64,000 bases of DNA from Labilibaculum filiforme. GTDB taxonomy: Bacteria > Bacteroidota > Bacteroidia > Bacteroidales > Marinifilaceae. Location: NCBI RefSeq assembly GCF_002843315.1, contig NZ_MVDD01000001.1:372001-436000 (forward strand). Direction: 5' to 3'. How positions within the stretch are numbered: position 1 is the stretch's first letter; each line of letters starts with the position of its first letter. Shown piece after piece: positions 24,998 to 29,334 of this stretch. Made by a program: the position numbers and the translations under genes. Below the pieces are notes generated by a model. The model ran no database searches. It saw only the letters and a program-made list of their open reading frames with translations, and was not told the DNA's origin.

Positions 24998-25864
24998 ATG
25001 ACAAAAATTATTCGATTTATTGCAATTGCTCTCATTTGCATACAAGCTATGCCAAGTTTTGGGCAACAAACAGATGTTCCTGTATTTTTGAGCTCGGAAC
25101 TTGAATTTGTGTGGGAAAGTGAGAATACGCTCGAAATTCCCGAATCGGCTTTTTACGATGCCACAAATAATTGCATCTATGTTTCTAATATTAAAGGCTT
25201 CCCCAGCGGTCAGGACGGAAATGGTTACATTTCCAAACTCAACTTAAAAGGTGAAATTATTACACACAAATGGGTTACTGGACTCGATGCCCCAAAAGGA
25301 ATGGCAAAATATGGCAACTTCCTTTTTGTAAGCGACATAAACGATTTGGTAGTAATAGATATTAGTAAGGGTGAAATTGTTAAGAAATATCCTGCCCCAA
25401 CAGCTATTTTTCTGAATGATGTTACTGTAAATCCTAAAACGGGAACTATTTACGTTTCAGACGCTAGAGCCTCTAGTATTTATCGTTTAAAAAATGGCAA
25501 GTTTGATATCTGGCTAAAAGATGTACAACTCGAACGTATAAATGGCCTCACTTTTAAAGATGACTTTCTTTGTGCCGGTGTTCTCAACAAAATTCTGAAA
25601 ATTGAGACCGATACAAAATTAATTAACACTCTTGTTGATAACACAGGAAGTATAGATGGCTTACTAAATACTGATGAAAACACTTGGATCATTTCAGATT
25701 GGATTGGTAACGTACAGATCATTGAATCGGGAAAAATTAAAAAGTTACTAAGCTCGGCCGAGCAACAAATTAATGCTGCCGACTTAGGCTATATTCCCGA
25801 ACAGAAAATTATTTTAGTTCCTACCTTTCACAACAATCGGGTAACTGCCTATCGGTTAAAATAG
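24998..25864 (+). CDS. Secreted SMP-30/gluconolactonase-like beta-propeller protein
   Basis: A 288-aa protein with a signal peptide (residues 1-22, ending SFGQ). Repeated strand patterns of a six-bladed propeller follow, such as FYDATNNCIYVSNIKG, GNFLFVSDINDLVVID, KTGTIYVSDARASSIYRL and WIISDWIGNVQIIESG. The fold is shared by lactonases and by sugar-sensing proteins. Catalytic metal ligands are not securely identified, so no substrate is proposed. The SDR gene follows after 7 bp and is probably cotranscribed. Confidence 0.75.
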   Translation: MTKIIRFIAIALICIQAMPSFGQQTDVPVFLSSELEFVWESENTLEIPESAFYDATNNCIYVSNIKGFPSGQDGNGYISKLNLKGEIITHKWVTGLDAPKGMAKYGNFLFVSDINDLVVIDISKGEIVKKYPAPTAIFLNDVTVNPKTGTIYVSDARASSIYRLKNGKFDIWLKDVQLERINGLTFKDDFLCAGVLNKILKIETDTKLINTLVDNTGSIDGLLNTDENTWIISDWIGNVQIIESGKIKKLLSSAEQQINAADLGYIPEQKIILVPTFHNNRVTAYRLK

Positions 25865-25871
25865 TAAGCTT

Positions 25872-26648
25872 ATGGATTTACATATTAAAAATCAGCTATT
25901 TGTAGTTTGCGGGGCGACATCGGGATTTGGAAATGCCGTTTTAAAAAATTTACTTGCCGATGGAGCAAAAGTAATTGCGATTGCTCGCGGACAAGAGAAG
26001 TTAGACCAATTACAAAAAGCCAACCCAATACAGATGGAAAGCTTTTGCGGGGATATTACTCAATCGGAAAGCATATACTTATTATTGCAGAAAATTGGCA
26101 ACAGAAAGCTCTCTGGTGCTTTTATAAATGCAGGTGGACCACCAGCAATGAAAACCTTAGAAACAAAACTTGACGATTGGGATAATGCCTATCATCAGCT
26201 ATTGCGATGGAAAGTGGAATTAACACAAGCTTTAGTTCCACTTATGATGAAAGAGAAATATGGCAGAATGGTTTTTCTGGAAAGCGCATCGGTGAAACAA
26301 CCTATCGATAATTTGGTACTAAGCACCTCGCTTCGCCTTTCGGTTGTTGGTTTTGTTAAAACCTTATCGCAGGAGATCGCTGAATCGGGAGTTACACTAA
26401 ATATTATTGGACCAGGATATCATGAAACCCCAGCAATTAAGCGACTATCAGACAAAAAAGCCGAGCAGGAAAATATTACTTCTCAAGAAGCAAAAGACAA
26501 AATTACCGCGGGCATCCGAATGAAACGAATGGGTAACCCAGAAGATTTAGGTCAGTTGGCCACATGGCTGCTCTCCCCTTCGTCGGGATATATTACCGGC
26601 CAAACTATTAGCGTTGATGGCGGACAGATTTTAGGAATACACGGATAA
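25872..26648 (+). CDS. Short-chain dehydrogenase/reductase, atypical active site
   Basis: A 258-aa Rossmann protein with dinucleotide motif GATSGFG (14-20), NAGG (86-89) and a C-terminal SVDGGQILGIHG typical of FabG-like SDRs. The catalytic Ser is in ESAS (137-140), but the Tyr expected about 13 residues later is Ser (STSLR, 151-155), and the YxxxK pattern is missing. A known SDR subgroup related to 3-oxoacyl-ACP reductases has this change. It may reduce its substrate by another acid, or bind NAD(P) without classical catalysis. Its partner is the propeller protein upstream. Confidence 0.85.
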   Translation: MDLHIKNQLFVVCGATSGFGNAVLKNLLADGAKVIAIARGQEKLDQLQKANPIQMESFCGDITQSESIYLLLQKIGNRKLSGAFINAGGPPAMKTLETKLDDWDNAYHQLLRWKVELTQALVPLMMKEKYGRMVFLESASVKQPIDNLVLSTSLRLSVVGFVKTLSQEIAESGVTLNIIGPGYHETPAIKRLSDKKAEQENITSQEAKDKITAGIRMKRMGNPEDLGQLATWLLSPSSGYITGQTISVDGGQILGIHG

Positions 26649-26650
26649 AA

Positions 26651-26692
26651 AACAAAACCCAAAGAATTGAGTCCTTTGGGTTTTGTTTTTTC
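26651..26692 (+). terminator. Strong terminator after the SDR gene
   Basis: A 14-bp stem (26651-26664 with 26674-26687) followed by a T tract. It isolates the SDR operon from the repeat region that follows. Confidence 0.88.
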
Positions 26693-26729
26693 TTATTCAG
26701 AAATATTTAAAACCTCTTTTTCTAAAAAA

Positions 26730-26859
26730 CAATAACCGTTACGCGGTATAGAAATGCAAATTCGCTAGAATGGACAACTTTAAAATTGCTCGTAGAGCAT
26801 TAGGTTTTGTAACATAATTAGAATATCTTAATTTATACTCCGTAGGAGTTGTGGCTAAT
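26730..26859. repeat. Palindrome set, copy 1 left part (A, B, C)
   Basis: A is ACCG-TTACG-CGGT, B is TGCTC-GTA-GAGCA and C is ACTCC-GTA-GGAGT. C lies directly after the transposase stop codon. The ~55 bp beginning at A recur at 27380 with few changes; B recurs at 27602. Confidence 0.8.
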
Positions 26860-27319
26860 CGTGAAATTCAAAAAGGAACTTTTCATCAAATTCTATTTCA
26901 AATTTCTTGAGGAATTGTATATACTCCTTTCTAAAACTATTTTTATGATGATGCTCTTCCTGATTAAGAATATAATTGTATACCGAATTTAATTGTGACC
27001 GACTATAAGAAAAAGCACCATATCCCTCTTGCCAAGCAAATTTGCCCATACATAATTTCTCCTTATTAATAAATAAGGATGATGTTCGTTTAATTTCATG
27101 AACCGTTTCGGAAATAGATTTATTTGCATTTACGCCAATTAAAATATGAATATGATCTTCCACTCCACCAACAATAATTGATTTGTGATTCATTTCTCGA
27201 ATAATACCAGATATATAAGCAAAAACTCTTTCCCGAATATTTTTACGCAAACAAGAATCACGAAATTTGACAGCAAAAATTAATTGAACATACAATTGGG
27301 TATAACTTCCTGGTTTCAT
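26855..27319 (-). CDS. REP-associated tyrosine transposase (RAYT, IS200/Y1 family)
   Basis: A 154-aa HUH-type single-strand transposase. The metal-binding HIH is H56-I-H58 in EDHIHIL. The C-terminal helix GYGAFSYSRSQL...YNYILNQEEHH carries the likely nucleophile Y116, in the pattern seen in Y1 transposases that act on short palindromes. All key residues and the full length are intact, so it is probably functional. It stands inside the palindrome set, with palindrome C just after its stop and palindrome D 11 bp before its ATG. No terminal inverted repeats of a classical insertion sequence are seen. Confidence 0.88.
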   Translation of the reverse strand: MKPGSYTQLYVQLIFAVKFRDSCLRKNIRERVFAYISGIIREMNHKSIIVGGVEDHIHILIGVNANKSISETVHEIKRTSSLFINKEKLCMGKFAWQEGYGAFSYSRSQLNSVYNYILNQEEHHHKNSFRKEYIQFLKKFEIEFDEKFLFEFHD

Positions 27320-27329
27320 ATTTTTATTG

Positions 27330-27360
27330 TTTATCCCCTACGGGGAATATTTATATCTAC
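27330..27360. repeat. Palindrome D, copy 1
   Basis: TCCCC-TAC-GGGGA, a perfect 5-bp stem, just upstream of the transposase start. Related sequences with decayed stems occur at 27456 and 27703. Confidence 0.75.
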
Positions 27361-27379
27361 CTTATATTTTTCTACAATA

Positions 27380-27485
27380 CAATAACCGCTACGCGGTATA
27401 AAAATGCAAATTCGCTAGAATGGGCAATTTTAAATTTTCCATTCAGCAGTAGGAGTTTATCCCCTTAAAGAGAATAATTACACCT
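27380..27485. repeat. Palindrome set, copy 2 (A, partial C, broken D)
   Basis: A is perfect here (ACCGC-TAC-GCGGT) with ~45 bp of shared 3' flank. C has lost its left arm (only GTAGGAGT remains) and D its right arm. No B is present. Confidence 0.65.
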
Positions 27486-27496
27486 TCGCTATCTTT

Positions 27497-27733
27497 TTCT
27501 ACAATACAATTAGCGCTAGGCTGTAAAAAAACGCCCTCTATTTTCTTCTGCAATAGTATTTACATTAAGAAAATACCTTTCTCATTCAAATTATAAGTCA
27601 CAAAATTGCTCGTAGAGCATTAGGTATTGTAGAAATACAATATCAACCGCATTATTTTTACTCTGTAGGAGTTGTAGCATTAAAATTAAACATGCATTAG
27701 CCGTTTATCCCCCAGAGGGAATATATACATCTC
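27497..27733. repeat. Palindrome set, copy 3 (eroded A, B, C, D)
   Basis: The eroded A keeps the flanking TTTCTACAATACAAT of copy 2. B is identical in its stem to copy 1. C is ACTCT-GTA-GGAGT with one wobble pair. D keeps a 4-bp stem. Confidence 0.65.
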
Positions 27734-27815
27734 TTCAACAAAGCTATAGTATAGTGCTGAGAAAAATTCACATACAAATTTCTGAATCACTGATTTCTAA
27801 ATAACTCCTATCCTA

Positions 27816-28370
27816 TTACTTCCCTTTTGAATCGAGAATTTCAAAATACCCGGAAGTGTGAATATAATTACTTTTGCTCGTTACCCAGAACTCCATTTCT
27901 TCGGCAGTTGATTTTTTATTCTGATACTGAGATGAATCATATTTTAACTTCTTTCGCATTTTCGGACTCAAATATTCAATATCCATTTCTAGGGCACAAG
28001 TATCTTTTTCATTTACAACTACAAGAGGTGCTACTTTTAATTTATCGGGATTCTCCAAATAAGTATAGTAAGCCAATAACTTTTGAATGTTGGTATGATA
28101 CTCTTCCAATTTCGACCGATCGACCTCAACTAACTCCTCCTCGGATTGATAATACACTTTTAAGAAATATTTATCGTCTAGTTTTATAATTTGACCTGAT
28201 TCGAAAGAAGAATCTTCAATATCGGCAAACAATAAATAAGTTTGTTTCTCGGCTAAATCGATAGTGTCGCCAATGGCAGGATGTAGAACAATAATATCCT
28301 TTTGGGCAAAAACTGAAAGGGTCCCAAAAAGAATCAATGTATTGAGAAGCACTGTCTTTACGAATTCCAT
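27816..28370 (-). CDS. Secreted protein of unknown function, paralogue 1 of a tandem pair
   Basis: About 184 aa from the chosen ATG, with a signal peptide ending in TLSVFAQ. The mature part is acidic and Lys-rich. I do not recognise the family. A 123-residue core matches the neighbouring gene at all but two residues, while the N-terminal 15 and C-terminal 45 residues are unrelated. An ATG nine bases upstream is possible, but the chosen start gives the better signal peptide. It follows paralogue 2 by about 16 bp on the same strand. Confidence 0.65.
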   Translation of the reverse strand: MEFVKTVLLNTLILFGTLSVFAQKDIIVLHPAIGDTIDLAEKQTYLLFADIEDSSFESGQIIKLDDKYFLKVYYQSEEELVEVDRSKLEEYHTNIQKLLAYYTYLENPDKLKVAPLVVVNEKDTCALEMDIEYLSPKMRKKLKYDSSQYQNKKSTAEEMEFWVTSKSNYIHTSGYFEILDSKGK

Positions 28371-28386
28371 AGCGTACAATTTTTAA

Positions 28387-28938
28387 TTATTTCTTTTTCT
28401 TATCTGATGCGTAAATCAAAAAATGACTCCCGGTCTTGATATAATTTTCCTGATCATCACCCCAATAGCCTATTCGTTCAGCATCTGATTTTAAAACTTG
28501 ATATCGATAGGAATCCTTTCTCAACTTTTTCTTCATTTTCGGACTCAAATATTCAATATCCATTTCTAGGGCACAAGTATCTTTTTCATTTACAACTACA
28601 AGAGGTGCTACTTTTAATTTATCGGGATTCTCCAAATAATTATAGTAAGCCAATAACTTTTGAATGTTGATATGATACTCTTCCAATTTCGACCGATCGA
28701 CCTCAACTAACTCCTCCTCGGATTGATAATACACTTTTAAGAAATATTTATCGTCTAGTTTTATAATTTGACCTGATTCGAAAGAAGAATCTTCAATATC
28801 GGCAAACAATAAATAGGTTTGTTTCTCGGCTAAATCGATAGTATCGCCAATGGCAGGATGTAGAACAATAATATCCTTTTGGGCAAAAACTGAAAGGGTC
28901 CCAATTAAAATCAAAAGACTCACTACCAGGTATTTCAT
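28387..28938 (-). CDS. Secreted protein of unknown function, paralogue 2 of a tandem pair
   Basis: A 183-aa protein with a signal peptide (residues 1-19, ending SVFA). The core G13-M135 is almost identical to paralogue 1 at both protein and DNA level (28534-28902 against 27957-28325, only a handful of base changes). The C-terminus (KKDSYRYQ onward) differs and ends in Lys-rich DKKKK. It is the first gene of the pair. No domain is recognised. Confidence 0.65.
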   Translation of the reverse strand: MKYLVVSLLILIGTLSVFAQKDIIVLHPAIGDTIDLAEKQTYLLFADIEDSSFESGQIIKLDDKYFLKVYYQSEEELVEVDRSKLEEYHINIQKLLAYYNYLENPDKLKVAPLVVVNEKDTCALEMDIEYLSPKMKKKLRKDSYRYQVLKSDAERIGYWGDDQENYIKTGSHFLIYASDKKKK

Positions 28939-29334
28939 GATGTTTAAATATTAAGTGCAGTTTTCCATTAAACTTCTTTACAAGATAAATCTAATTAATT
29001 AAAAGACAAACGACTGACATAATTGAATAAATTATGAGTAAACAGTAGCAACTTGTACTGAATCAATATTCAAATAATTTCATACTAGAAGCATTCGAAT
29101 TAATCCCTTGTAATACATTCTCACTCCCTTAAGCTACATTCAGATTCCCGCGAGCTACATTTCAACTCTCAAGACTTACATTTGCATTCCCTTTACCAAC
29201 ATACAAACTCCCTTAAGCTACATTTACACTCCCTCGAGCTACCTACCAACGCCCTTAAGCAACATTTTGTACTATTTCGATGAATATTGAGAAGGATTAG
29301 TAAACTACACCAAAAAAAAACAAGCTACTGCATA
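28939..29334. other. 396-bp non-coding stretch with a 21-bp tandem repeat
   Basis: No intact gene. The right half is an eight-unit degenerate repeat; the left half, next to paralogue 2, is AT-rich promoter-like DNA. Confidence 0.7.
29102..29269. repeat. Eight degenerate tandem copies of a 21-bp unit
   Basis: Units begin at 29102, 29123, 29144, 29165, 29186, 29207, 29228 and 29249, each exactly 21 bp. The consensus is ACTCCCTTAAGCTACATTT plus two variable bases. The unit length is a multiple of three; on the - strand one frame reads SLRECKC-like heptads, but it is broken by stop codons. Confidence 0.85.

Follow-up and report, generated by a model that had tools for sequence, protein, structure and literature searches.

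Y1 (HUH) transposases have been described together with DNA hairpins in several settings. For the transposases associated with repetitive extragenic palindromes (REPs), the REP-associated tyrosine transposases (RAYTs), inverted hairpins flanking the Y1 gene and clusters of alternating, inverted hairpins are known (Nunvar 2010, PMC2817692), and in the IS200/IS605 insertion sequences guide tetranucleotides 5' of the palindromes choose the cleavage sites (PMC8266576). A further group, TnpA-Y1 subclass 1.2, is characterized in the survey of Quentin et al. 2018 (PMC6006769) by the motifs DH[IV]H, WQ and Y---Q--HH, and its entry for REPs in Table 1 of that survey is 'no'; the automatic REP search described there requires a GT[AG]G on the 5' side of a 7-20-nt stem, 0-2 nt away from it. 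Here we analyze a 64,000-nt stretch of the genome of Labilibaculum filiforme (the window; G000:C1:372001-436000, on contig NZ_MVDD01000001.1), in which a cluster of small palindromes (26735-27720) surrounds one intact open reading frame (ORF) of 154 amino acids, the Y1 transposase gene tnpA (26855..27319, minus strand). An earlier note on the window had read the cluster as four different palindromes, A to D, repeated three times in the order A-B-C-D around a RAYT, and had proposed that they form a compound four-hairpin unit. In our view the locus is probably a REPtron/REPIN-like unit built on an IS200-like TnpA, whose partner is a module of two hairpins, R and L, with a TAG between them (R-TAG-L).

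Results

The palindromes of the earlier note are borne out by five perfect stems of 5 bp that close on a GTA or TAC loop and start at 26787, 26837, 27334, 27385 and 27607, and so are the loops themselves, TAC in A and D and GTA in B and C; the window holds eight hairpins of this loop type with a stem of at least 5 bp, and five of them fall inside 833 bases of the array. If all four are turned so that the loop reads GTA, A and B have a common tail running to TTGTAG or a close variant, nine bases past the stem (R type), and D and C are found downstream of such an R-type tail, on its strand (L type). The module consists of the R hairpin (5-bp stem, 3-nt loop), 9 nt, [G/A]TAG, about 22 nt, and the L hairpin: B-C is this module on the plus strand, A-D the same module on the minus strand. 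Because the two are one module in opposite orientations, the natural unit is D-A-B-C (<L <R R> L>), with tnpA between units, and the array is a series of alternating inverted modules. The hairpins are real, and the four 'different' palindromes are two types belonging to one module; four independent palindrome families are ruled out, as flanks and geometry are common within the two pairs.

The best example on the minus strand is A2-D1 (27332-27401), composed of A2 (R type, ACCGC-GTA-GCGGT, 27385..27397, with a perfect stem), a GTAG (CTAC on the plus strand; 27372..27375) that stands between the hairpins at the same offset as in relatives and is the presumed cut site, and D1 (L type, TCCCC-GTA-GGGGA, 27334..27346), 14 nt before the tnpA ATG. 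On the other side of the gene the plus-strand module B1-C1 (26783-26851) is formed by B1 (R type, TGCTC-GTA-GAGCA, 26787..26799), whose tail ends in TTGTAA, and C1 (L type, ACTCC-GTA-GGAGT, 26837..26849), which starts 5 nt beyond the stop codon of tnpA; the transposase gene lies between C1 and D1, as the earlier note had it. When folded as single strands the modules form their hairpins (z -2.3 to -2.9), B3-C3 also making a different stem in the middle.

The same geometry is found beside relatives of the gene. A first set was drawn from the flanks of 83 homologue places (84 loci, one of them a duplicate), of which 77 loci were kept; the seven dropped were duplicates (L141, L068) or truncated or broken (L089, L096, L118, L127, L139). 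Hairpins with a 3-nt loop reach 3.74/kb within 600 nt of the gene, compared with 0.24/kb in the stretch 800-1500 nt away and 0.18/kb in shuffled sequence, an enrichment of 16-21 times over these two, and within 700 nt at least two are present in 59 of the 77 loci and at least three in 51. Across the 447 hairpins of this set GTAG is most frequent at 14 nt beyond the loop (26 occurrences, versus 0-6 at nearly all other offsets), and for the 46 R hairpins with GTAG (25 loci) 28 of 47 distances to another hairpin, in the range 15-150 nt, are 49-52 nt. Modules numbered 64, of which 46 were kept; a MAFFT alignment of 39 was left unused because of gaps inside the L stems, and a covariance model, R1, was built on 19 gap-free modules. 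A2-D1, itself one of the 19 training sequences, is the best R1 match of its genome (E 5.2e-7), and B1-C1 is a weak one (E 0.021).

A second set of 80 loci, the best 80 of at least 586 relatives, was taken without regard to hairpins. Here 316 proximal and 51 distal hairpins with a 3-nt loop were counted (3.46/kb versus 0.37/kb at 1000-2000 nt); 113 hairpins from 48 loci have [GA]TAG at a distance of exactly 14 nt from the loop, with 1 case at 13 nt and 10 at 15 nt, and 82 of 110 distances (15-110 nt) from an R hairpin bearing [GA]TAG to another hairpin are 47-55 nt. At E<=0.01, R1 recovers 151 modules in 60 of the 80 loci. An R> L> module ends within 100 nt upstream of tnpA in 32 loci and a <L <R module starts within 100 nt downstream in 33, so that the canonical sense R> L> tnpA <L <R is seen on both sides in 15 loci and on either side in 50; the opposite orientation occurs in 5 loci upstream and 4 downstream. 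A search by pattern only gave 137 modules, versus 8 in reversed sequence. By their titles the fetched records come from Bacteroidota, Ignavibacteria, Chloroflexi and Desulfonema magnum; most of the second-set records are metagenome bins, so the odd hosts are possibly mis-binned. In the Desulfonema magnum record (L244), outside Bacteroidota, R1 matches recur at steps of about 100 bp beside a TnpA of the subclass 1.2 type.

Modules also occur away from the gene. TnpA was found at E<=1e-20 in 32 of 59 genomes searched (that of L. filiforme, 5.2 Mb in 55 contigs, counted), and the 26 genomes with R1 matches at E<=0.01 are all among these 32, with none among the 27 genomes lacking TnpA at that threshold (Fisher p 2.3e-11), an association that is expected in part because modules adjoining the gene are counted too. 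Among the best 150 of 276 R1 matches, a listed TnpA is no more than 2 kb away for 49 and farther off for 101, the latter at 67 places in 21 genomes, and copies per genome amount to tens at most (24). Twenty distant regions were fetched and 19 examined, L277 being left out as it is cut at its match: overlap with an ORF of at least 100 amino acids exceeds 30 nt for none of the 19 matches, and the surrounding 2-3.5 kb yielded no TnpA. The distant copies take the form R> L <R, in which both R hairpins have the same L, <L <R R> L>, or single modules, and units with four perfect stems and no transposase are present in relatives (L275, L292). Dispersed modules of the GGTGC and the AATCCC/GACTCC type were also seen in one congener, G003 (L275-L280).

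L. filiforme itself has one four-hairpin unit without a transposase at three places (C5:40240, C1:9811 and C12:8387), the second copy having 95% identity to the first and the third 87%; in copies one and two three stems are perfect and the fourth is bulged, and the badly decayed third copy has one perfect stem. Folded as single-stranded DNA this unit makes a REPIN-like long stem in which the R tails pair with each other (z -3.98), and the aligned copies suggest that its ends are CTAC/GTAG. Empty sites of the kind that the earlier note had envisaged were found for the copy at C1:9.8 kb, the one syntenic site examined: the neighboring gene of 78 amino acids is present in nine of nine genus members, and the unit stands beside it only in L. 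filiforme, being missing in all eight congeners (BLASTN at E 0.01 matches one of the nine loci). The compound unit of the earlier note therefore survives in part: units of fixed order without a transposase exist here and in relatives, with one transposase type consistently tied to them, and the unit is a permutation of two inverted R-L modules.

The tnpA product matches Pfam Y1_Tnp (E 2.2e-24) and, in NCBIfam, the IS200 transposase model (60.2 bits, cut-off 55). With REP_Tyr_transpos, the REP-associated transposase model of NCBIfam, it scores 21.2 bits, below the cut-off of 80, and it reads YILNQEEHH in place of Y---NP; a canonical RAYT, or class 2 TnpA-REP, as supposed in the earlier note, is ruled out. 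It carries the marks of TnpA-Y1 subclass 1.2, an assignment by motifs (DHIH, WQ, YILNQEEHH, matching DH[IV]H, WQ and Y---Q--HH) and its length is close to the roughly 148 amino acids of that subclass; the invariant columns of 20 aligned proteins include H56, H58, W96, Q97, Y116, Q120, H123 and H124. Six such genes are present in the genome, the other five 33-48% identical to tnpA, consistent with the low copy number and divergence of that subclass. The nearest solved structures by sequence are IS200/IS605-type transposases including ISHp608 and the ISDra2 type (8 sequences at E<=0.001, the best at about 1e-13 to 1e-12); entries 2xm3, 2xma and 2xo6 are the ISDra2 transposase. The ratio of nonsynonymous to synonymous substitution rates (dN/dS) is about 0.02-0.07 in five of eight relative pairs where it was measurable; the remaining three are a pair of identical sequences, a pair lacking silent changes, and the pair of this tnpA with a relative 64% identical to it, for which dN is 0.29 and dS is saturated. 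None of four neighbor proteins was found to be shared with this nearest relative (G001:C29) within the 2.7 kb compared. The TnpAs of L066 (G017:C44) and L093 (G001:C54) are 98% identical across two genera, with dS 0.13, which suggests horizontal transfer. Beside a paralogous transposase gene, L004 (G000:C2:218895-222326), several different palindromes (AAGGC..GCCTT, CTAGGGG..CCCCTAG, CAGCC..GGCTG) recur in order at steps of about 117 bp.

Hairpin and transposase appear to have changed together. The two bases that precede TAG require 22 changes on a tree of 71 TnpA loci made with FastTree, where shuffling gives 37.9 and none of 200 shuffles is as low; the G/A of [GA]TAG taken by itself tracks the tree only weakly, one shuffle in 200 reaching so low a count. 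The two bases agree in 16 of 16 pairs of TnpAs more than 80% identical; agreement falls to 48% among the 389 pairs at 60-80% and to 15-24% among less similar pairs; the R stems agree less often than the tails, in 56% of the 16 closest pairs, and TnpA may read the tail more than the stem.

The array, whose approximate limits are 26717..27780, runs from a terminator-like inverted repeat after a short-chain dehydrogenase/reductase (SDR) gene to the next gene (27816). Direct repeats tie its hairpins into three sets: A1/A2 are 90% identical over 71 nt, B1/B3 97% over 30 nt, C1/C3 88% over 25 nt, D1/D3 83% over 30 nt, and D1-A2 versus D2-A3 77% over 73 nt. A threefold A-B-C-D order can be traced through these repeats and their graded decay, in decayed form only, with B2 lost and half of C2 remaining. 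A1 (R type, 26735..26747, minus strand), its tail running to the left and ending in TTTTTAG on that strand, has one mismatch to the A2 pattern; C3 (L type, 27660..27672, plus strand) has one mismatch to the C1 pattern; and B3 (R type, 27607..27619, plus strand) has the tail TTAGGTATTGTAG. Comparison of the repeats identifies the C2 remnant, its right half GTAGGAGTT (27449..27457, plus strand), and, on the minus strand, the decayed L-type hairpins D2 (27460..27472) and D3 (27708..27720) and the decayed R-type hairpin A3 (27512..27524).

The SDR gene upstream of the array is present in eight of nine genus members. G002 and G006 also have the same downstream gene, with a lone D-like hairpin between the two, in a match of 41 and 40 bp respectively (80%) that covers D1, the leader and the first two tnpA codons; in G003, G007 and G008 a different sequence follows the SDR gene (the downstream comparison covers these five congeners). 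The simplest reading is that the array predates these species and was lost in G002 and G006. Downstream, the adjacent minus-strand genes 27816-28379 and 28387-28938 are a tandem gene duplication, 90% identical over a 300-nt stretch, and neither matches a Pfam or NCBIfam model at E<=0.001.

Discussion

These results can be arranged into a tentative mechanism. TnpA most likely binds the R and L hairpins on single-stranded DNA and would cut next to the TAG, the R-TAG-L geometry being akin to the junction of the right and left ends of an IS200/IS605 element. Modules are found in inverted pairs, the form at this locus being <L <R R> L> (about 165 bp) and the other R> L <R, where a single L serves both R hairpins (about 122 bp); units without tnpA are dispersed between genes, like REPINs (REP doublets forming hairpins) and bacterial interspersed mosaic elements (BIMEs), with tnpA itself flanked by inverted modules, and here three tandem copies of the unit are decaying around a still-intact gene.

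The junction-like layout can be turned into an argument for an ordinary IS200/IS605-type insertion sequence, with R and L as its ends, arrays arising from insertion beside a copy at TAG, and no REP-like second life. The solved transposases nearest by sequence and the IS200 equivalog score above its cut-off agree with this; the divergence of the other five genes in the genome from tnpA, the low dN/dS in five of eight pairs, the units without tnpA away from such genes, and the inversion of modules around the gene, where one left end (LE) and one right end (RE) on one strand would be expected, do not, and we consider this explanation unlikely. Still less probable is that the hairpins serve mainly in control at the RNA level, D repressing translation and C ending the transcript, with the arrays as duplicates. 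The positions of C1 and D1 relative to the stop codon and the ATG are what such control would call for, and of the 22 upstream modules found by pattern in relatives, 19 have the L loop 13-34 nt ahead of the ATG; the fixed TAG, the R hairpins, the presence of both orientations and the far-off units are left unexplained, and 25500-29000 has no match to an Rfam family at gathering thresholds. From their placement close to the gene, which recurs in relatives, the C and D hairpins may control tnpA, as the earlier note suggested. Least probable, if marginally so, is non-functional debris, left by a formerly mobile element that was duplicated in tandem on the spot and is now just decaying, a reading that accommodates the graded decay of the sets and the lone D-like hairpin in G002 and G006 and that may well be true for sets 2 and 3 here, but not the intact gene or a module geometry that persists around constrained genes in many genera.

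Several observations weigh against the REPtron/REPIN-like interpretation that we favor. The earlier note had asked whether A to D recur in order at other loci: none of the four was found elsewhere in this genome (by BLASTN, and for A also by pattern search), so the three sets are local tandem copies, an outcome that the note itself had named as counting against its idea. In the first set 18 of 77 loci have fewer than two hairpins with a 3-nt loop, and loops of 4-7 nt are also enriched near the gene, less strongly (0.63-1.39/kb), so that the tri-loop module is not the sole kind; the distal controls are richer in coding DNA than the proximal stretches, and the density contrast is therefore imperfectly matched. 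In the R1 training rows 97.9% of cells pair and eight of eight variable pairs changed on both sides, a covariation that we set aside as proof because the hairpins had been selected for pairing. Twenty of the 80 second-set relatives have no R1 module; the training set also held A2-D1 and one second-set locus, L264; and the stricter count of flanking modules by pattern only is lower (upstream 22/80, downstream 27/78, both 9/78, wrong way 3). G003 has modules, while the only TnpA copies found in it are distant (35-38% identical to the query); its matching transposase may have been lost. The exact junctions of the unit present or absent at C1:9.8 kb are blurred by short repeats, and binding, cleavage and mobilization by TnpA are inferred.

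On balance the data suggest that subclass 1.2, listed as without repeat partners, has a consistent one of a new layout. The wider proposal, to which we would give about even chances, is that the subclass 1.2 TnpAs are a separate, widespread hairpin-processing system in which each cut site is read by the unlike R and L hairpins, the stems of these hairpins change over time but their closing pair, the 9-nt tail and the spacing hardly do, and compound units of three and four hairpins have spread in Bacteroidota and, by record titles, in Ignavibacteria, Chloroflexi and Desulfonema. A search of open papers, which is no proof of novelty, found no such system for subclass 1.2, no two-hairpin module and no TAG 3' of R. 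If the module is the partner of TnpA, it provides a testable substrate of about 70 nt (R-TAG-L) for an uncharacterized HUH enzyme, and hairpins with changing stems are a natural set for asking how single-strand transposases evolve their specificity.

With IS200/IS605 elements such as IS608 and ISDra2 the system shares the Y1 HUH family, subterminal hairpins and a tetranucleotide near each hairpin. It differs from them in its hairpin arrays inverted around the gene, its units without tnpA and its low-copy, divergent genes, in place of near-identical multiple copies with one LE and one RE hairpin. It resembles subclass 1.2 (PMC6006769) in motifs, length of about 150 amino acids, occurrence in Bacteroidetes, low copy number and low identity between copies, and departs from the entry of that subclass in Table 1 (REP 'no') in the hairpin modules that flank the gene; with its 5-bp stems and 3' TAG, the module lies outside the criteria given for the REP search of the 2018 survey (PMC6006769). 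Modules beside subclass 1.2 genes thus call into question the 2018 listing rather than the membership of tnpA. Finally, as in the REPtrons, BIMEs and REPINs described for class 2 TnpA-REP/RAYT systems (PMC2817692, PMC8266576, PMC3733652), the gene stands between inverted hairpins, inverted units are dispersed between genes, complementarity of the stems is kept, and hairpin and transposase change together. Unlike in class 2, the transposase has Y---Q--HH and not Y---NP, each module has two unlike hairpins, and [GA]TAG stands 9 nt 3' of R, whereas GTAG/GTGG there is at the 5' foot of the hairpin. What the locus has in common with REPtrons and REPINs is their organization: inverted hairpins flank the gene, and gene-free inverted units are dispersed.
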